Origin: Spirochaetota bacterium
GTDB taxonomy: Bacteria; Spirochaetota; UBA4802; UB4802
DNA length: 38,582 nt
NCBI GenBank assembly: GCA_026414805.1
Contig: JAOAIH010000022.1
Span: 1 to 38,582, forward strand
Reading direction: 5' to 3'
In this document: positions 15,567-26,128 of the stretch, piece by piece
Position numbering within the stretch: the first letter of the stretch is position 1
Layout of the letters: every line of letters begins with the position of its first letter
Notes under the pieces: model-generated
What the model saw: the letters and a program-made list of their open reading frames with translations, nothing else
What the model was told of the DNA's origin: nothing
Database searches by the model: none
Program-made: the position numbers and the translations under genes

Positions 15567-17502
15567 ATGTTTGTTGATGTTGCAGTAGGCCTCCCATTAG
15601 ATGGATTATTTACATACAGTATTGATGAGCCCATCAGTAAAGGAATGCGTGTTGTTGTTGATTTCAATAACCGTAAAACAACTGCCTATGTTGTTGCAGT
15701 TCACAATAATGTCCCCGATTTTGAAGTAAAACCTGTTATTAAGGTGCTGGATACGCAGCCTATCTTTGACGAGCGTTTATGTGCGCTTGCGCAGTTTGTG
15801 GCCAACCATTATGTATGCTATTTTGGCGAAGCGCTGGGCACTGCATTGCCTGGGGGCAAATCATATAAAACAAGAACAAGACCATGTATAGGTGGCGATA
15901 GCTCAAAAGAGATAATCCTCACTGCGCAACAGCAACACATATATACTGCAATTCTCAATCAACCGCACAGAGCACATTGCATATATGGAATAACTGGTAG
16001 CGGAAAAACTGAAGTATACATTGCTCTTGCAAAAGAGATGATCAGGCAGGGCAAATCAGTGCTGTATTTGGTGCCAGAGATTTCCATTTCTTCGCAGATG
16101 TTTTATCGCCTAAATGCAGTATTTGGCACAAACCTTGTTATGTATCACAGCGGTATGAGTCCAAATGAGCGTCTTATAAGCTGGAAGCGCTTTTATAATG
16201 GAGAGGCAATGATTGCAGTGGGAACCCGTTCGGCTATTTTCATGCAAGCGCCTTCACTTGGGCTTATAATAATAGATGAGGAACACGATAGCTCATACAA
16301 AGAAAATAGTACAGCCACGGTACCATGCACGCACTGTAGCATGGTACAGACACAAACAGGAAGGAGCGCTTTTGGTATTGGGCTCGGCAACACCGTCACT
16401 TGAAACGCTGTATGCTGTACAGCGTAACATGATTTTACAACATGAACTTACTGAACGTTACGGAAAGGCGATATTGCCCCAGCTTGAAATTGTGCCTGTA
16501 AAAGCATCAAGCGGCCCACCACTTTTTTCAAATAGATTATTGTTTTCAATTAAAAAGGCAATTGAATCAAAGGAGCAGGTCATTTTGCTTTTAAACAGAA
16601 GAGGTTTTGCTCCGGTGGTTTTGTGCAGTGATTGTGGCACAGGAGTTAAGTGTCCACATTGCAGTATAAGCTTAACCCATCACAAGCATAGCCTGTTATG
16701 CCACTATTGCCATTACCAAACAGCGATGCCAAAGCATTGTGTACATTGCGGGTCAAATAATTTAGTACTTGTGGGCAGTGGAACACAGAGGGTTGAAGAA
16801 GCGCTGCAAAAAATGTTTCCTGTTGCACGGATTGTGAGGCTTGATCAGGATTCTGCGCGGAAAAAAAATTTCCTTTCTGGTGTTGTAAGCGACATGATGA
16901 ACCACAAAATAGATATTCTGTTGGGCACACAGATGGTGGCTAAAGGATTTGATTTCCCAAATGTGTCACTGGTAGGAGTAATTTTAGCTGATATAGGGCT
17001 TCATCTTCCTGATTTCAGAGCAGTGGAACGCACCTTTGCTTTGCTTGTACAGGTTGCAGGTCGCTCAGGGCGCGGTGATATTCCTGGCAAAGTAATCATA
17101 CAGACCTTTAATCCTGAAAATCCTTTGTTTCACTATTTGAAAAACCACGATTATATTGGATTTTGTAATAGGGAACTTTCAATACGAAAGGCTTTACAGT
17201 ATCCGCCATATATTCGCCTTGCACGGCTTGTAGTCAGAGGCACTAAAGAGGATGTGGTTAGCAATGTTGCCGACCATTGCAAAGAGCTATTACAGGAGCT
17301 ATCGCCACGCTATCCTGATGTAACTATTCTTGGGCCTACTCAGGCGCCACTGTATAAAATTGCATCGCAGTTCCGGTACCATATTGTGTTAAAATCACAC
17401 AACGTTGAAATGCTCAGCAGCGTGATAGGTGAGTGTAAAAAAAAGATTAATCTGCAGGGGACATTTTTAGAGATTGATATTGACCCGCTGGATCTATTGT
17501 AA
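15567..17502 (+). pseudogene. priA: primosomal helicase PriA, split by a one-base frameshift
   Basis: Two overlapping frames, 15567-16403 and about 16276-17502, together cover PriA (about 645 residues). The first has the N-terminal DNA-binding part, Walker A GITGSGKTEVY and the DEEH box (IIIDEEHDSSYKE). The second resumes with IVQPRYHARTVAWY, LGSATPSLET, the zinc-binding cysteines (CSDC, CPHC, CHYC, CVHC) and the helicase motifs to the C-terminus. The two join perfectly if one A is removed from the run of four at 16303-16306, giving SYKEIVQPRYHAR. Everything else is intact, so this is a very recent mutation, an assembly error or recoding. PriA restarts stalled replication forks. Confidence 0.9.
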
Positions 17503-18009: not shown

Positions 18010-20070
18010 CTACTTTAAAGAAAGTTCTTTTTCATAGGCCTGCATTGCAACCTTGCGATTAAGTCGTATTTCCTCATTGGTTGGGTCAAGCTCTGAAGCT
18101 TTTGTTAAAAACTGCAATGACTTTTTGTATTCGCGCTTTGCATAGTAGCAGCGTCCAATATTGTGATATGCCTGGGCAACAATGCTGTCTTCATTGGAAG
18201 CTTCAAGTACCTGATAAAAAATCTCAATTGCTTTATCATATTTATGTTGATTATATGCGATAGTTCCCATAGCAAGCAGTGCCTCAGGCTCATTTGGTGA
18301 AATCAAGAGTGCCTTTTGTAATGACTGCACTGCCTGTGCTTGCTGTTTTTCATCTTTTGCATTTGATAAAATGATACCTATATTTATATACGCTTTTTTT
18401 GCGTACTCGTTGTTGCCGTTAATTGCAATTACTCGGTTGAATGCTTCAAGTGCGTAGTCATTTCTGCCTTTATTGTAATACAGCATCCCAAGCATAAATT
18501 GGGCTTCCTGCAGGTTTGGCCACAGCCGCACCACTTTTATATATTCATCAAGCGCTAAATCAAGATACCCTTTTTCGTAGTAGAGGTCGGCAATGGCAAG
18601 CCGTGGTTTGGGATTGTCAGGATTATACTGGGCTGCATCGTTGAATGCTGCTACTGCAAGCTCTAGCTTTCCCGCATGTTTGTAGGCAATCCCTAAATTG
18701 TACAGAGTGGAACTGTCTTTGGGGTCAATTGCCAATGCCTTTTTATAAAAGTTTATTGCATCTTCATAGCGATGCTGGTCATCGCGAATATTACCCATGT
18801 TGGCATAAGCTATCCGTGCATTTTCTGAAACTGGCTCATATACTGTTATCTGCTTATAGTATTCAAATGCAGTATCAAGATCGCCTTTACGGTAGTATAA
18901 TTCAGCAAGCCTTGCTATGATAGCAATATTGCGGTTTTGCACTGGCTGAAGACGTTCAAGTACCGCAATGCTCTCATCATAGCGTTCAAGCGACGCATAG
19001 GCTTCAGATAGGCCTTCTAAAAGCTTTTCTTCATACACACCAGATGATTCGGCAGCTTTAAATTCGGCCAGCGCTTTTTCATACTGCTGGCGCTGCATAT
19101 AGACGATGCCAAGGTTATAGTGATTGACAGGTTCATTGGGGTCAAGCTGTATTGCCATGGTCAGGTATTTCTCAGCCATTGCATAGTCGCGTCTGCCAGT
19201 ATAAAATGCCCCTAAACGGCTGTACGCTAATTTGGCAATATTGCCCGAAGGGTCAGCAGCTGCAGCTTTTTTGAAATATTCAACTGCTGATAGCTCATCA
19301 CCTGTTTTTAAAAATGTTAGCCCGGTATTATACAGTGCCTGTGGATTGTTGGGTGCAATATCAAGAGCTTTTGTATAGCTTTTGACAGCTTCGGGGAATT
19401 TTCCCATATCATAGAATATATTGCCTTTGAGGATAAGCAAATCAGGATTACTATCATCATTATCTATGGCTTTTTGAATGGTTGCAAGTGCATTAGGGTA
19501 ATCCTTTCTGTGGCGGTATGCAAGTGCTAAGTTTTTTAATATTGTGCTGTCATTAGGTTTATATTTTAAAGCCCGTTTAAATGTCTCTATTGCTTTAATG
19601 TAGTCACCTTTATCATCGTATATCATGCCAATATAGGTGAGTGCAATAGCCTTGTCGCTGTCTGGGGCATCGGATTCAACAACCTGAGTAAATTCATCAA
19701 TTGCGCTGGTGTAGTTCTTTTTGAAATAATATGTTTTGCCACGCACAATGTGTGGATTCTGTGATGACTCTTCGGGTGTAAGTTTCTGGTCACTAATACC
19801 AGGGAGTAATTTATACGAATCCTCGGCAATGGTTTGCCTGTCACCTAAGAATGATGATGGCTTTTTTATAACAGTAACTATCGCCACCGCTAATGCAACG
19901 ATAGCTATCAAAACAAGTGCAGCAATCAAAGGATGGTATTTTTTTGGTATCGCAATGCCCCTAAAGCCTTTATGTGGTAAATCTTCTTTTTCTATGGAAA
20001 AGATACGCATACCTTCCTTCTGATTATTTTCAGGAATGATGGTGAACCTGTGTTTTTTTATTGGAGGCAT
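18010..20070 (-). CDS. membrane-anchored protein with about 16 tetratricopeptide repeats
   Basis: 686 residues. A short cytoplasmic N-terminus, one membrane helix (about 47-68), then TPR units from about 105 to the end. I count 16, each with the usual G/A-x-x-Y ... A-x-x-x-F-x-x-A-L-x-x-x-P pattern. The orientation suggests the repeats lie outside the cytoplasmic membrane, though this is not certain. TPR arrays bind other proteins; no enzymatic domain is visible. It follows nusB by 3 bases and precedes the DUF1285 gene by 6, so it belongs to the ribH operon. The partner is unknown. Confidence 0.85.
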   Translation of the reverse strand: MPPIKKHRFTIIPENNQKEGMRIFSIEKEDLPHKGFRGIAIPKKYHPLIAALVLIAIVALAVAIVTVIKKPSSFLGDRQTIAEDSYKLLPGISDQKLTPEESSQNPHIVRGKTYYFKKNYTSAIDEFTQVVESDAPDSDKAIALTYIGMIYDDKGDYIKAIETFKRALKYKPNDSTILKNLALAYRHRKDYPNALATIQKAIDNDDSNPDLLILKGNIFYDMGKFPEAVKSYTKALDIAPNNPQALYNTGLTFLKTGDELSAVEYFKKAAAADPSGNIAKLAYSRLGAFYTGRRDYAMAEKYLTMAIQLDPNEPVNHYNLGIVYMQRQQYEKALAEFKAAESSGVYEEKLLEGLSEAYASLERYDESIAVLERLQPVQNRNIAIIARLAELYYRKGDLDTAFEYYKQITVYEPVSENARIAYANMGNIRDDQHRYEDAINFYKKALAIDPKDSSTLYNLGIAYKHAGKLELAVAAFNDAAQYNPDNPKPRLAIADLYYEKGYLDLALDEYIKVVRLWPNLQEAQFMLGMLYYNKGRNDYALEAFNRVIAINGNNEYAKKAYINIGIILSNAKDEKQQAQAVQSLQKALLISPNEPEALLAMGTIAYNQHKYDKAIEIFYQVLEASNEDSIVAQAYHNIGRCYYAKREYKKSLQFLTKASELDPTNEEIRLNRKVAMQAYEKELSLK

Positions 20071-20073
20071 ATT

Positions 20074-20487
20074 TCACCTCGTTTGTAATTCGTGTACCCG
20101 TATTGCGTCAAGAATCCCGTTTATAAACTGGCCCGAATTTTCGCTCCCGTAAATTTTCCCAAGTTCAATTCCCTCATCAATGGTGACTGCATGCGGAATG
20201 GAATCAAGGTAAAGCAGCGCGTAAATAGAAATTCTCAGTATTGATTTATCAACCGGGTTTATGCGTTCAAATTTCCAGTTTTTTGAATATTGCTTTATCA
20301 GGCTATCAATGTAATCTACATTGGCAATGGTGCCTTCAATTAAGGTTATTGCAAAGTCCCTGATATCTTCCGGGATTTCCTTATCAACCCAATGCAGGGT
20401 AACAAGCTCCTCCACCGGCGTACGAACAGTTTCGTACATATACAGAGCCTGCATTGCGTATTCACGGGCTTTCCGTCTGTGACCCAT
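20074..20487 (-). CDS. nusB: transcription antitermination factor NusB
   Basis: 137 residues, the usual size. The all-helical family pattern is clear: RRKAREYAMQALYMYE at the start and, near the end, INPVDKSILRISIYALLYL and HAVTIDEGIELGKIYGSENSGQFINGILDAI. It acts with NusE/S10 on boxA of rRNA leaders. The start overlaps the ribH stop (TGATG), a common ribH-nusB linkage. Confidence 0.96.
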   Translation of the reverse strand: MGHRRKAREYAMQALYMYETVRTPVEELVTLHWVDKEIPEDIRDFAITLIEGTIANVDYIDSLIKQYSKNWKFERINPVDKSILRISIYALLYLDSIPHAVTIDEGIELGKIYGSENSGQFINGILDAIRVHELQTR

Positions 20488-20951
20488 CAGCGTATCTTTT
20501 TATATAGTTGAGCCATTTCTATAGCTGCCATTGCAGCATCAAAGCCTTTATTCCCTGATTTGGTTCCGGCACGCTCTACTGCCTGTTCAATGGTATCTGT
20601 TGTCAGCACTCCATAGATAACCGGTACCTGCGATTGTAATGAAACTGTTGCAACACCCTTGGAAACCTCAGCAGCAACATAGTCAAAATGAGGCGTTGCG
20701 CCTCGTATTACCGCTCCCAGACATATTACTGCATCAAAGCCGCCATTCTGGGCTACCTTCATTGCCACTGGTGGAATTTCAAACGCGCCGGGCACCCACA
20801 CAACGGTTATGTTTTTTTCTTCGGCATTGTGCCGTTGCAGACAGTCAAGAGCACCGGACAAAAGTTTATTGGTAATGAATTCATTAAAACGCGAGACTAT
20901 AATTGCAACCTTTAAACCGGATGCATCCAATTTCCCTTCAATTATGTTCAT
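20487..20951 (-). CDS. ribH: 6,7-dimethyl-8-ribityllumazine synthase
   Basis: 154 residues, full length. It makes the penultimate riboflavin intermediate. The motifs are VSRFNEFIT (start of the ribityl-binding strand), [25 protein letters not shown] with the catalytic histidine, and [31 protein letters not shown] precedes the ATG. It is the first gene of a four-gene minus-strand unit (ribH, nusB, TPR, DUF1285) and has a good promoter upstream. No other riboflavin gene lies in the window. Confidence 0.97.
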
Positions 20952-21058: not shown

Positions 21059-22327
21059 TTAAAAACCTGCAGCGGTCATTATCATTACAACTTGATTAAA
21101 TCTATCATTAGCTGAAATATTTTTACTTATGCCGTGAGTAAGCCAGATTGGCAGCCCCCCAGGGCCAAGTATTCTGAAACCGTAGCCGCTCCCCATAATT
21201 TTTTGTGATTGTGGATTAATAATATATGCATAATCAAAATACATATTCATTCGCAGACGACTGAAAAGGTTAAACCCATACTGCATATTGCACAGACAAA
21301 ATGATTCTACTCTGAACTGGTCCACAGTTGTGCCATGCACTACATCTAACTTTGCGTTGTCAATGGTGCCGCCAAAGCGTGGCTGAGAAAGAAAGTCGTT
21401 GTCAATACCGCCTTTAAGCCGTAACCGTACAATAATATTGTGGTTATCTGCAAATACTTTCCCAATAGTAAGCGTTGAAGAATAAATTGCAAAGGTTCTG
21501 GCTTCTTCTCCCATCTGCAGTTTCCCTGGCTCGCCCCAGGTATCCCACCTGTTGCGGATGCCATAGCCAATCCAGTTATGGAACGCAATGCCATTAAAAA
21601 GCTGATCAATGCCCTGTTCTGTGTAATGTTCAATATTCCAGTCAAAGCGCGGAAATAGGTTATAATGATTTTTGGGCATAATGAAGTCTTTTGGTGTGTC
21701 TCTTTCAACAAAGAAGTACTGACGTGAATCAATCGTAAATCCTATGTTATTGTACAATGGCAGAGATATTTTCAAAGTAACTATCTCCGAAATATAATTA
21801 GTGTAAAATAACAGATCTTCATTAAAGCGCTCGCCAAAAAAACCAAAGTTTGTACCGCTTGCATATAAAAATGACCCTATGATTGTTTCCTGCAATGACA
21901 CATTGTCCCATATAAATTTTTTTTGAGTAAATTTTGCCGTTGCCTTGAAACCAACCCAGGTAAACGCAAAATCAGTATTTGAGTTAAAGATATTCTTTTT
22001 ATTGTAAAGAACAGCCGGGGCAAAGATGCTATTTTTAGATTCCAGAGGTATTTCCCCAAGCAATACAATAATAGTTGAGATGTCTTCATGGGTTGCTTCT
22101 TTCAATTTGTCAAAATCAGCCTGTTGGTAGGTGGAAATTTGTTTTTCTTTTTCTTTAAAAGGAGTGGTGTTTTCTTTGTATAGAGTTTGTTTGTCTATTG
22201 TTTCAAGAGTCTTCTTAATTGTTTTCCCTACAGAAGATTTTTTTTCTGCTGGTTTGTCTTCAGCAAAAAGTGTACTTGAGATGGCAATGCTTATCAATAA
22301 AATGATGAAGTGGGTAAATTTACTCAT
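21059..22327 (-). CDS. exported protein, probable outer-membrane beta-barrel
   Basis: 422 residues with a signal peptide (about 1-22, ending LFAED). A charged, lysine-rich helical stretch (about 25-75) follows, then many alternating aromatic strands (for example FRVESFCLCNMQYGFNLFSRLRMNMYFDYAY). It ends in phenylalanine (VVMIMTAAGF), the usual C-terminal signal of outer-membrane barrels. No family is recognised. Its start overlaps the stop of the large transporter-like gene (ATGA), so the two are co-translated and may form an inner/outer membrane pair, by inference only. Confidence 0.7.
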   Translation of the reverse strand: MSKFTHFIILLISIAISSTLFAEDKPAEKKSSVGKTIKKTLETIDKQTLYKENTTPFKEKEKQISTYQQADFDKLKEATHEDISTIIVLLGEIPLESKNSIFAPAVLYNKKNIFNSNTDFAFTWVGFKATAKFTQKKFIWDNVSLQETIIGSFLYASGTNFGFFGERFNEDLLFYTNYISEIVTLKISLPLYNNIGFTIDSRQYFFVERDTPKDFIMPKNHYNLFPRFDWNIEHYTEQGIDQLFNGIAFHNWIGYGIRNRWDTWGEPGKLQMGEEARTFAIYSSTLTIGKVFADNHNIIVRLRLKGGIDNDFLSQPRFGGTIDNAKLDVVHGTTVDQFRVESFCLCNMQYGFNLFSRLRMNMYFDYAYIINPQSQKIMGSGYGFRILGPGGLPIWLTHGISKNISANDRFNQVVMIMTAAGF

Positions 22328-25293
22328 GCGTTATATTGTGATAGTATTGATCTGAGTCGTTGGGCAATCACTTTCATTACATTGATAGCTATCGTAGGAT
22401 TTGCCTTCAAAGTTAACAAAAAATCATTGCGTGAGATAGAAAGTACAAGCGAAGGGCGCGTTGTTTTCACTGTGGCACTACGGGGTTCTTTATCTATTAT
22501 TGATAATTCGCCAATGCAACTACCTGCGCCAAGACGGGCTATTTCCTTTCCTCTTCGTGTAACACTTACCTGGCCGTCCATTATAATGAATAGTTCATCA
22601 CCTGTTTCATCTTCTTTGATGAATTCAGTATTTTCAGGAAATTTATGTATACGGGCAATTTGTACCAGGTGAATGAGCTGGTCAACAGGTGTTTCTGCGA
22701 AAAGAGCATTCTGTTTCAAAAAGGTAAGTATGTGGATTGTCTGTGCCACAGGATCCTCCAGTAGTAGGTTGTTAGTTTCAATATGTTTAAGACTAAAGTC
22801 AAGCTGTTTTGCAATTGCTGGCATGGATGAGCGCAGATATTTACAATTTTTTATAAAAAGCGGTAATTGTACTGGTGCTATTTCCCTGGCTGAGTATGTT
22901 TCAAGCAACGCCACCTTCTTGCCTTTCTGAGTCAAAGTAAGAAATTCAATGATGTAATTTTCCAATTCTACATCTTTCAGTAACATATTTGATTCGTAGG
23001 CAATGTCAACATGCACCCCTGTGGACAGTGCCAGAGCTTTTATCAGCAGATTTTTTTCATAGTGCAGTGCATCAGTAAATATCACCAAAAGAAAATCTTT
23101 TATACAATTGGAGATGGGCAATGTGGAGATGGTAGCCTTGCACTGTAATAACTGGTGAATACGTGCAATGGAAGAATTTATAAAAAGCGGCAGGTTTTCT
23201 TGAGGTAGTACATTTGCAGCCAGGAATATATTCAAATAGTTTATTTTTTTATGGTACGACCGCTTCTGTATAAGGCGATTTTCAGGTATAGTAAAATTAT
23301 AATCACCTGCATACAGTGCAGCAAATACGTCTGCTGTCATATCAAAACGATAATCACAGAGCATAAACTTTATTTCTGAATTTATAGAAGTTCTTGATAG
23401 GAAATGCTGCAGCTCAGCAAGAGGGGCGTATCTGAATTTATAAAGAATTCTAATGACTTGAGATTGTGGCAGCATATGGGCATAAAGAATGATAAATTTA
23501 AAAAAAATGATGTTGCCCGTTGTAATTGCCAAGCGATAGAGCTTGTGTATGAATAACCCGGGATCTATAACAGAACAGAGCATGAGGAATTCAATGTCAG
23601 CATTAGGTATATTGTTCAGTATGCGTTGCTCACACTGATGTAGCATCTGACTGATGTGGTCACTATTATACTTGTCTGTATCAGTAAGCAATCGGTGAAT
23701 AAACGATTCAATGGGCAGTATAGGTATGTGATTTTGCAGAATATCTCCTGGGTTTATCTGAGTAAAGTGTGATACATATCGATATGCGTAAACCCGTACC
23801 AAGAGGTTTGTATCGTTTAATGCTTTTTTGCTCATCTCAGTTGCTATATCGTGAGGTGCTTCGTATAATATTGAAAGCATGTTGATTTTTGTAGTTTCCG
23901 ATAGCGAATCGTAATGCTCCAGTATGAGTGGAAACACGTCTGCTGACATTCCTTTCTGCAGCAATGCATCAATGTATTCTGATTTATTTTCAATGTAAGG
24001 ATTTTTCAAAAGCTCTGTTATTTGGCTGTGGGTTATTTGCAAAGTTTGTGGCAGGTGCTGCTGTAATTTACAATAGATGGCTTCTTTATACAGTGCATTT
24101 TGCTTCAGAGTGACAGCAACAAACAGTAGTCCAACGCCAATTGATAGTGCAACAATAATCTGCAATGGGAGTGATACATATAATGATAACATTAATCCGC
24201 CTACAATCATACCGCATGGGCTTACGATGCTGGTAATAATGGAGCGTGCCTGGCTAACCCTGTCAGCTGGATAGATTGAGAGCATTATATTGCTAACAGG
24301 CTGACGGATAAAAAAACTCATATTTTTCCTAAAAAAGCGCAATGCTATTGCAGCAAGCAGAGTAGGAGATAGTAATGCATAAAAAATGAATAGCAAGTAT
24401 GAAGAGGGGTACAGGAGGTTTGTAATGGGAATACTCAATTTTTTGATAACACGGGAAGTAACAAATAACTGCATAGCCATGGTGATGCAATCAGTAATAA
24501 ATGTATATTTGCTTAAAAATACTGCCAAAGTGTGTTGTGAAGGGTAAATGTGTGTTGCAATCCGTGCAAAGAAATACTCCGCATGCTGATTGACAATTGC
24601 CATGACAAATACCGCAGCAGCGCTTACCACAAACATACGACTTGAAAATAATGTTGAAAGTTTATCTATAAACTTGTGTTCAGATTTTGTATGCAGCACA
24701 TGTCGTGTTTTAGCAGTGGTAAAGAAAGGAATCAATATCAGCAAGCCGGTAAAAAGCCATATATATGATGCATAGTGAATAAACAGCGAACTTGCTATTG
24801 ATATTGTAATTGTAATGAAAATGCCACCTAACTTGGAACCAGCCATTAAAAAGGGGAATATTCGCTTTGAGCTTTGCAGGGTAAGATATTGGAATGAAAA
24901 ATTGATAAAATGAGCATCCAGATAAAACGTAGCAATATAATTGCCTATAAAAAGATACAGTGGATCGTGGAGAGCATATCCTGAAGGAAGTAACGTGCTT
25001 GCAGGTATACAGCAAAATAATAGTATCAAGAGGATAAATGCACGTGTAAGTGAAAATAACTCAAGGAAATATGTGTAAATAAATCCCGACAAAAACAGTA
25101 CAATTCCGTTTATTGCAAAAAATTTTGCAAGACCTTTGGCACCGTAGGTTTGCAAAAACAAAGATTCAGTGTAAACCTGCCCAGTTGCAAAGAAAATCCC
25201 GGATAAAAAATAGATAAAAAAAAGCGGGATGGCAAATGACATCTCTTCACTGCGCAGTGAAAATAGTTTCCATCCTGCTTCTTTTATATTCAT
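22324..25293 (-). CDS. NTT/MFS-like membrane protein fused to a HEAT-like region and a cyclic-nucleotide-binding domain
   Basis: 989 residues. Residues 1 to about 395 hold about 12 hydrophobic helices in a layout reminiscent of ATP/ADP translocase (NTT) or MFS carriers (start KLFSLRSEEMSFAIPLFFIYFLSG). A long soluble helical part (about 400-860) looks HEAT-like. The C-terminus (about 876-989) is a cNMP-binding domain with an intact phosphate cassette: GEL (928-930) and Arg938 in PRSATV. Transport could thus be controlled by cyclic nucleotide. The substrate is unknown, and NTT assignment is from architecture, not from identified binding residues. There is no clear ribosome binding site. The 70-base gap to the upstream crotonase gene holds an inverted repeat. 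Confidence 0.75.
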   Translation of the reverse strand: MNIKEAGWKLFSLRSEEMSFAIPLFFIYFLSGIFFATGQVYTESLFLQTYGAKGLAKFFAINGIVLFLSGFIYTYFLELFSLTRAFILLILLFCCIPASTLLPSGYALHDPLYLFIGNYIATFYLDAHFINFSFQYLTLQSSKRIFPFLMAGSKLGGIFITITISIASSLFIHYASYIWLFTGLLILIPFFTTAKTRHVLHTKSEHKFIDKLSTLFSSRMFVVSAAAVFVMAIVNQHAEYFFARIATHIYPSQHTLAVFLSKYTFITDCITMAMQLFVTSRVIKKLSIPITNLLYPSSYLLFIFYALLSPTLLAAIALRFFRKNMSFFIRQPVSNIMLSIYPADRVSQARSIITSIVSPCGMIVGGLMLSLYVSLPLQIIVALSIGVGLLFVAVTLKQNALYKEAIYCKLQQHLPQTLQITHSQITELLKNPYIENKSEYIDALLQKGMSADVFPLILEHYDSLSETTKINMLSILYEAPHDIATEMSKKALNDTNLLVRVYAYRYVSHFTQINPGDILQNHIPILPIESFIHRLLTDTDKYNSDHISQMLHQCEQRILNNIPNADIEFLMLCSVIDPGLFIHKLYRLAITTGNIIFFKFIILYAHMLPQSQVIRILYKFRYAPLAELQHFLSRTSINSEIKFMLCDYRFDMTADVFAALYAGDYNFTIPENRLIQKRSYHKKINYLNIFLAANVLPQENLPLFINSSIARIHQLLQCKATISTLPISNCIKDFLLVIFTDALHYEKNLLIKALALSTGVHVDIAYESNMLLKDVELENYIIEFLTLTQKGKKVALLETYSAREIAPVQLPLFIKNCKYLRSSMPAIAKQLDFSLKHIETNNLLLEDPVAQTIHILTFLKQNALFAETPVDQLIHLVQIARIHKFPENTEFIKEDETGDELFIIMDGQVSVTRRGKEIARLGAGSCIGELSIIDKEPRSATVKTTRPSLVLSISRNDFLLTLKANPTIAINVMKVIAQRLRSILSQYNA

Positions 25294-25363: not shown

Positions 25364-26128
25364 TTACTTGCTCATTGTTGCCTGTACAAACTCCAATGTC
25401 TTGCGTACGTTATCATCAAAGAAACACTGCAATCCTTTTGTCCAGCTTCCGTCTTTAAGGTCTTTGCGTATTCTGTCGGCAGTTTCTTGACGTATGCATA
25501 ATTTAAGTGGTGTAAATGCATTGCCGGGATTGTTTTTCCACAGATTAATAAGTTCTTTTGCTCTGATAATTAATTTATCTTCATCAACAAGTTCATCAAT
25601 GAGTCCAAGTTGTAATGCCTGTTCTGGGCCGTACATGTTTCCAAAGTACATGATGTCTCTGAATTTCTTGTCGCTGTCCACGCCAAACCGTACCACATTC
25701 CACTGTGCAACTGAAAGAGGCAGTCCAATCTTGATTTCGCTCATGCCCATCTTTATCTTTGGATGATTTTTCATGATACGATAGTCGCACGCCATTGCAA
25801 ATATCATGCCGCCGGCAACAGTATGCCCATTTAATGCTGCAATAACAGGTTTTTCAAACATAAAAAGCTCAAGCAAAATCTCTTCCTCAACGTCAAAGAA
25901 TTTAATCACTTCGTTAATATCCTTAAAGCTTAAAAACATAGGTAGGCTGAAACCTGAGGAAAATGTTTTCCCTTCCCCTGTTAAAATAACACCCTTAATT
26001 GATGGGTCTGCTGCTGCTTCTTTAAGATACGTGCGCAGGTCATGCAGTACTGTGTCGGTGAGCGCATTCATTTTGCCATCATTAAGTGTAAGAATGTAGA
26101 CATTATCTTCTACTTTTTTCTGCAACAT
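25364..26128 (-). CDS. enoyl-CoA hydratase/isomerase (crotonase) family protein
   Basis: 254 residues, a single crotonase domain. The first oxyanion-hole segment is GKTFSSGFSL (about 53-62), the second is AALNGHTVAGGMIFAMACDYRI (about 98-118). Of the two hydratase glutamates, the first (GGxE) is isoleucine here (Ile109) and the second is present as Glu131 in GMSEIKIGL. One-glutamate members are often isomerases or other crotonase enzymes, so simple hydratase activity is doubtful. GGGGG lies 6-10 bases before the ATG. It is separate from the main oxidation gene group at 31-38 kb. Confidence 0.85.
   Translation of the reverse strand: MLQKKVEDNVYILTLNDGKMNALTDTVLHDLRTYLKEAAADPSIKGVILTGEGKTFSSGFSLPMFLSFKDINEVIKFFDVEEEILLELFMFEKPVIAALNGHTVAGGMIFAMACDYRIMKNHPKIKMGMSEIKIGLPLSVAQWNVVRFGVDSDKKFRDIMYFGNMYGPEQALQLGLIDELVDEDKLIIRAKELINLWKNNPGNAFTPLKLCIRQETADRIRKDLKDGSWTKGLQCFFDDNVRKTLEFVQATMSK

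Follow-up and report, generated by a model that had tools for sequence, protein, structure and literature searches.

A putative cyclic-nucleotide-regulated NTT-type carrier and its co-inherited exported partner in a Spirochaetota lineage

Contig JAOAIH010000022.1 of the Spirochaetota bacterium assembly GCA_026414805.1 (3.24 Mb in 186 contigs, completeness 95.6%) supplies the 38,582-nucleotide stretch of DNA analysed here, called the window below. Its reverse strand carries a pair of open reading frames (ORFs): a gene of 989 codons (22324..25293), whose product fuses a nucleotide transporter (NTT)-type carrier domain to a HEAT-like middle and a cyclic-nucleotide-binding (cNMP) domain, and directly downstream a gene of 422 codons (21059..22327), whose product is probably exported and is referred to here as the partner. 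A preliminary description of this DNA, made from the letters alone, had proposed that the 989-residue protein is translationally coupled to an exported, barrel-like protein, and both frames stand as it gave them, including the exact ATGA (22324..22327) in which the stop codon of the carrier gene overlaps the start codon of the partner gene. The carrier chain begins with a polytopic domain of the NTT or major facilitator superfamily (MFS) type (residues 1–405; 24079..25293), identified by hhalign and hidden Markov model (HMM) matches, continues with a HEAT-like α-solenoid (residues 406–848; 22750..24078) and ends with the cNMP domain (residues 849–985; 22339..22749).

The two genes are inherited together. 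Among 98 Spirochaetota genomes, the carrier is found in 17, the partner in 18 and both in 17; the carrier count is that of 20 hits above threshold minus three that contain the cNMP domain only (G012, G024, and G046), and the single mismatch is a 163-residue partner fragment at a contig edge (G022). In the 17 two-gene genomes, the genes are adjacent in 14, lie apart in two (G014 and G010, which form family f6), and are cut by a contig end in one (G026). Conservation of the pair had been set beforehand as a test of the proposal, and it extends to joint absence, as neither gene occurs in any of the ten gene-lacking genomes that were read. These ten all contain the gene for a TPR protein (18010..20070 in the window, reverse strand; PF07719 and others), which serves as a lineage marker; two further genomes of an initial 12 were left out, one with only a weak TPR paralog (G030) and one that gave no TPR match (G046). 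The site of the pair can be recognized even when it is vacant. In the window, it is bordered upstream by ech, encoding enoyl-CoA hydratase (25364..26128; PF00378), and downstream by ribH, encoding lumazine synthase (20487..20951; PF00885), with nusB next to it (20074..20487; PF01029), all on the reverse strand, and the ech and ribH flanks are common to relatives with the pair and to empty sites. In five of the ten gene-lacking genomes (G002, G005, G018, G015, and G036), ech and ribH or nusB enclose a site with no room for the pair; for G015 and G036, ribH is missing from the ORF list, where a longer overlapping frame was retained.

The pair has also changed state as a unit. On a TPR tree of 24 genomes, in which G022 is counted as a pair holder and four genomes with no usable TPR reading are left out (G010, G014, G021, and G028), parsimony gives six presence/absence changes, at least four of which are forced by well-supported branches. 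Both genes are moreover retained in family f6, though unlinked. The joint state changes and this retention after separation constitute the strongest evidence that carrier and partner act together, and co-inheritance is a stronger argument for functional pairing than the translational coupling on which the proposal had relied. The coupling is exact in the window but not conserved: in the 13 linked pairs with readable ORF limits, taking the first possible start codon in each case, the intergenic distance spans −29 to 131 bp, and no pair other than those of the window and of G017 (where it reads GTGA) has a four-base overlap. It is therefore a local detail, not conserved in congeners and accompanied by no evident Shine-Dalgarno sequence.

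The N-terminal domain was predicted to contain about 12 membrane helices. It is polytopic, and a low-confidence structure model shows about 12 helices in this region; hydropathy resolves 9 strong segments in residues 1–405. Its relationship to a carrier class, which the proposal required, is apparent from profile comparison. Aligned by hhalign with 13 longer proteins from the same phylum, the domain matches TLC-HEAT-cNMP proteins with a probability of 99.9 and an E value of 2.7e-32 over 412 columns; of the ten targets that were checked with Pfam, eight contain TLC, HEAT_2, and cNMP domains at E≤0.1, and TLC scores among the matched proteins reach 56.5 bits. An HMM of the domain, searched across 296 genomes, retrieves such TLC-HEAT-cNMP proteins directly (E down to 9.1e-29), and the 989-residue protein matches NTT-HEAT-cNBD proteins (cNBD, cyclic-nucleotide-binding domain) over its full length with E 1.4e-66. 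These profile matches relate the protein, in divergent form, to the NTT-HEAT-cNBD fusions already published. Its N-terminal domain is only 13–18% identical to five other aligned TLC-class proteins, and within its own group the carrier shows 72% identity in the genus and 29–37% to other families. Polar residues are nonetheless invariant in the N-terminal domain, for example E43, D126, H128, N131, R144, K154, E239, D268, R319, and K323, all shared by the full set of 14 orthologs. A PDB sequence search with the carrier domain found nothing. The carrier structure model, with a mean predicted local distance difference test (pLDDT) score of 43, is usable in the solenoid only, and the lack of a carrier fold among its fold-search matches says little at such confidence.

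The HEAT-like character of the middle, also part of the earlier proposal, is a weaker assignment, made by profile comparison and from the fold of the best-modelled region and not by Pfam. No HEAT repeat (PF13646 or PF02985) is detected by Pfam in the window protein, and PF13646 appears in 3 of 14 orthologs, with E values no better than 0.096. When profiles are compared, the middle aligns to genuine HEAT regions with E 8.4e-5 and a probability of 60%, and the most confident part of the structure model is an α-solenoid at about residues 480–590, with helices at pLDDT 70–83. A fold search with the model returns mainly HEAT/ARM solenoids, all of them middling (Foldseek E≥0.03; VIA Z≤8.8, in the common range).

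The cNMP domain is the sole Pfam domain detected in the 989-residue protein, matching PF00027 over residues 883–962 with a score of 60.6 bits (cut-off 27.5). Its phosphate-binding cassette (residues 924–944; 22462..22524) holds the Glu and Arg expected of a cyclic-nucleotide pocket, and the GEL…EPR pattern, of which the preliminary description had called the GEL and an Arg intact, is complete in 14 of 14 aligned orthologs. In the cNMP fold, this Glu holds the ribose and this Arg the phosphate of the ligand. The best sequence relatives of the domain in the PDB include PKG, PKA-R, the MlotiK1 channel, and CRP. Class III cyclases (PF00211) give five matches in the genome of the window and are matched in each of the 45 genomes searched in the order; a ligand is therefore likely made. 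It is also of note that, in G006 (L105:2566-7934, on G006:C65), a gene for a class III cyclase of 681 residues with predicted membrane segments is followed after 14 bp, on the same strand, by a paralogous NTT-HEAT-cNMP gene. Though a single case, this linkage of the carrier class to cyclic-nucleotide synthesis gives independent support to a working link between the class and cyclic nucleotides.

The partner was described as an exported barrel-like protein, of which the barrel is not confirmed. Judged by eye, the N-terminus is signal-like (residues 1–22; 22262..22327), basic, then hydrophobic, with LFA following, and the same pattern is present in congeners. Every one of the 15 orthologs ends in an aromatic residue, either F, as in the window protein, or W, as in the other families. 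The sequence is variable up to about residue 85 and strongly conserved over the remainder, and it is better conserved than that of the carrier, with 84% versus 72% identity in the genus and 47–54% versus 29–37% between families. Pfam and NCBIfam searches gave no match, the family search yielded no FadL match, and a PDB sequence search produced chance-level rows only. The family has no member beyond the order among 296 Spirochaetota genomes, no match in plasmids or viral contigs, and no distant paralog in the genome of the window. An outer-membrane barrel is the likely but unproven nature of the partner.

Given these findings, we propose that the pair is a two-gene unit made of a cNMP-regulated inner-membrane carrier of the NTT type and an exported, probably outer-membrane, partner, a proposal whose chances of being right or wrong we regard as balanced. 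In this mechanism, the inner-membrane carrier of the NTT superfamily would move a solute, and its cytoplasmic tail, composed of the HEAT-like solenoid and the cNMP domain, would sense cyclic AMP (cAMP) or cyclic GMP. Binding of the ligand may bend the solenoid, and this conformational relay could alter the carrier cycle and so adjust transport. The partner, most likely an outer-membrane barrel, would pass or capture the same solute at the cell surface. The shared solute could be a small phosphorylated or anionic compound, a nucleotide being one candidate. The domain order, the homology to NTT-HEAT-cNBD proteins, the intact pocket, the class III cyclases, and the joint inheritance are observed; the outer-membrane location, the shared substrate, and ligand binding and gating are inferred. 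A bolder reading, in which a cyclic nucleotide switches transport machinery that spans both membranes, with an inner-membrane NTT-superfamily carrier and a HEAT relay working with a previously undescribed, order-restricted family of outer-membrane barrels, appears doubtful to us.

Several observations weigh against the proposal of a regulated two-gene transport unit. Between families, evolutionary distances of carrier and partner correlate at 0.46, compared with 0.88 for carrier and TPR protein and 0.31 for partner and TPR protein, and special co-evolution of carrier and partner is not seen; over all pairs, the corresponding values are 0.95, 0.99, and 0.96. Intergenic distances of 103–131 bp in three congeners rule out translational coupling as the main argument. 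The Pfam TLC family PF03219 is matched neither in the window protein nor in the 14 orthologs (hmmscan, E≤1), with a marginal six-frame match in the ortholog of G004 (21.7 bits against a cut-off of 21); the carrier is therefore claimed as an NTT/TLC homolog and not as a member of PF03219. The NTT-HEAT-cNMP paralog at L105 has no such partner gene in the stretch read, and the carrier class therefore seems not to need one. Structure prediction, which recovered the solenoid of the carrier, gave no usable fold for the partner (pLDDT 26.9, with three close sequences). The strand pattern of the partner does not exceed that of shuffled sequences (z 0.64), its strand-like density being equal to that of Omp85 controls, and PF01103 (Omp85) is matched in 0 of 15 partner orthologs at E≤5.

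A rather unlikely alternative is that the pair serves envelope building and not solute uptake. The MFS-type domain would flip a lipid or glycan precursor or form a scaffold under cNMP control, while the partner would be a divergent Omp85-like barrel, devoid of POTRA domains, with a role in insertion or export. Over its C-terminal quarter, the partner does align in register with the end of the barrel in Omp85 proteins of the same order, with a score of 26.5 that exceeds all 40 column-shuffles (best 23.1), and an Omp85 subset behaves similarly, with 0 of 60 shuffles reaching the score; the probability of the alignment is only 2.4%. POTRA-less Omp85-type proteins of about 380–450 residues are also common in these genomes, with several per genome in the order (for example at G000:C86, C2, and C17, stretches L185-L187), and the stronger conservation of the partner relative to the carrier would suit such a role. 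On the other hand, shuffles do reach the score of the partner when the comparison is made with BamA barrels alone, with the whole small-Omp85 set, or with the larger subgroup of that set, PF01103 is found in no partner ortholog, and positive controls score far higher (41–170). A relationship of the partner to Omp85 is, on this alignment, suggestive only. It is likewise unlikely that the two genes have separate jobs and simply share a housekeeping operon with ech, ribH, nusB, and the TPR gene. The pair does sit between conserved genes that all run in one direction, the distances bear no mark of special co-evolution, and family f6 keeps the genes apart, its partner gene following genes for a molybdopterin oxidoreductase and a 4Fe-4S protein (L061:10187-15395 and L073:4169-9245). 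Against this reading, the pair comes and goes jointly in at least four events while ech and ribH/nusB stay in place in five of the ten gene-lacking genomes, and family f6 has kept both genes despite their separation.

The NTT homology of the carrier also raises the possibility of a plain ATP/ADP-type exchanger whose cNMP domain reports the energy state, as suggested by Major, Embley and Williams (2017, PMC5381601), and whose partner is a nucleotide porin. A gene for an HD-domain phosphohydrolase after the TPR gene (L062) and one for a glutamine amidotransferase (PF13507) after the partner gene (G014) speak for this version. We consider this version very unlikely in view of the strong divergence of the carrier from other TLC-class proteins, the lack of any sign of an intracellular lifestyle, and the neighbours of its relatives: in 4 of the 18 stretches (L104, L106, L108, and L114), an NTT-HEAT-cNMP gene stands next to one for an Orn/Lys/Arg decarboxylase, a hint that substrates of other kinds exist in the class. 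A nucleotide cargo is thus not to be assumed for the regulated carrier and partner that we favour either.

Other clues from the neighbourhood were considered and set aside. Fatty-acid uptake was suggested by ech and by genes for thiolase, acyl-CoA ligase, and acyl-CoA dehydrogenase about 6–11 kb from the pair, but ech also flanks the site in five of ten pair-less genomes, and no FadL match exists. A flavin or respiratory role, suggested by ribH and by the molybdopterin oxidoreductase of family f6, was rejected because ribH-nusB persist at pair-less sites. Elsewhere in the class, the TLC-class genes at L100 and L101 adjoin a sodium:solute symporter gene. In G014, the gene that follows the separated carrier on the same strand (L061:8412-9650) encodes a porin resembling ExtI of a selenite/tellurite operon, scoring 119.6 bits where the cut-off is 150. 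In the window, priA (15567-17502) is split into two overlapping ORFs of 278 and 408 residues where congeners have a single ORF of 645 residues; a frame break in such a housekeeping gene is perhaps an assembly error.

If the cNMP domain gates the carrier, the system would amount to a solute carrier in bacteria that a second messenger controls directly, and a second gene gained and lost with the carrier offers a handle on what NTT-HEAT-cNBD proteins do. The POTRA-less Omp85 barrels of the same genomes (PF01103) resemble the partner in size, export, and the pattern of the last quarter, but the partner has no significant sequence or profile match to them. Cyclic-nucleotide control of a carrier, as proposed here, has a counterpart in the sperm Na+/H+ exchanger SLC9C1, which belongs to a different carrier family from that of the window protein. 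SLC9C1, gated by voltage and cyclic nucleotides (PMC6052114), is likewise a carrier with a built-in cyclic-nucleotide-binding domain; its own feature is a voltage sensor, whereas a HEAT solenoid and an outer-membrane partner do not figure in the opening of that abstract. The closest known systems are the NTT-HEAT and NTT-HEAT-cNBD proteins, to which the preliminary description rightly compared the carrier. In the relevant passages of Major, Embley and Williams (PMC5381601), feedback by cAMP is suggested for them, NTT-HEAT-cNBD proteins are presented as widespread, including in cyanobacteria and oomycetes, a related NTT-HEAT form is reported in Chlamydia, and their functions are called unknown; NTT-HEAT is also mentioned in PMC6995639. 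A table note in the former states that NTTs were not found in Spirochaetes, in contrast to the TLC-domain matches seen here in 14 of 296 Spirochaetota genomes, 11 of them above the cut-off. The window protein has the same three parts in the same order and a full-length profile match to such proteins in the phylum, but it is very divergent, lacks a direct Pfam TLC match, and is found in Spirochaetota. Its gene is also co-inherited with that of an exported partner, whereas none is mentioned in the survey passages, and titles and abstract openings in the literature searched yielded no description of an outer-membrane partner of NTT-HEAT proteins. The fusion architecture is therefore already published, and what is new here is a divergent, conserved relative that is accompanied by a co-inherited exported partner.

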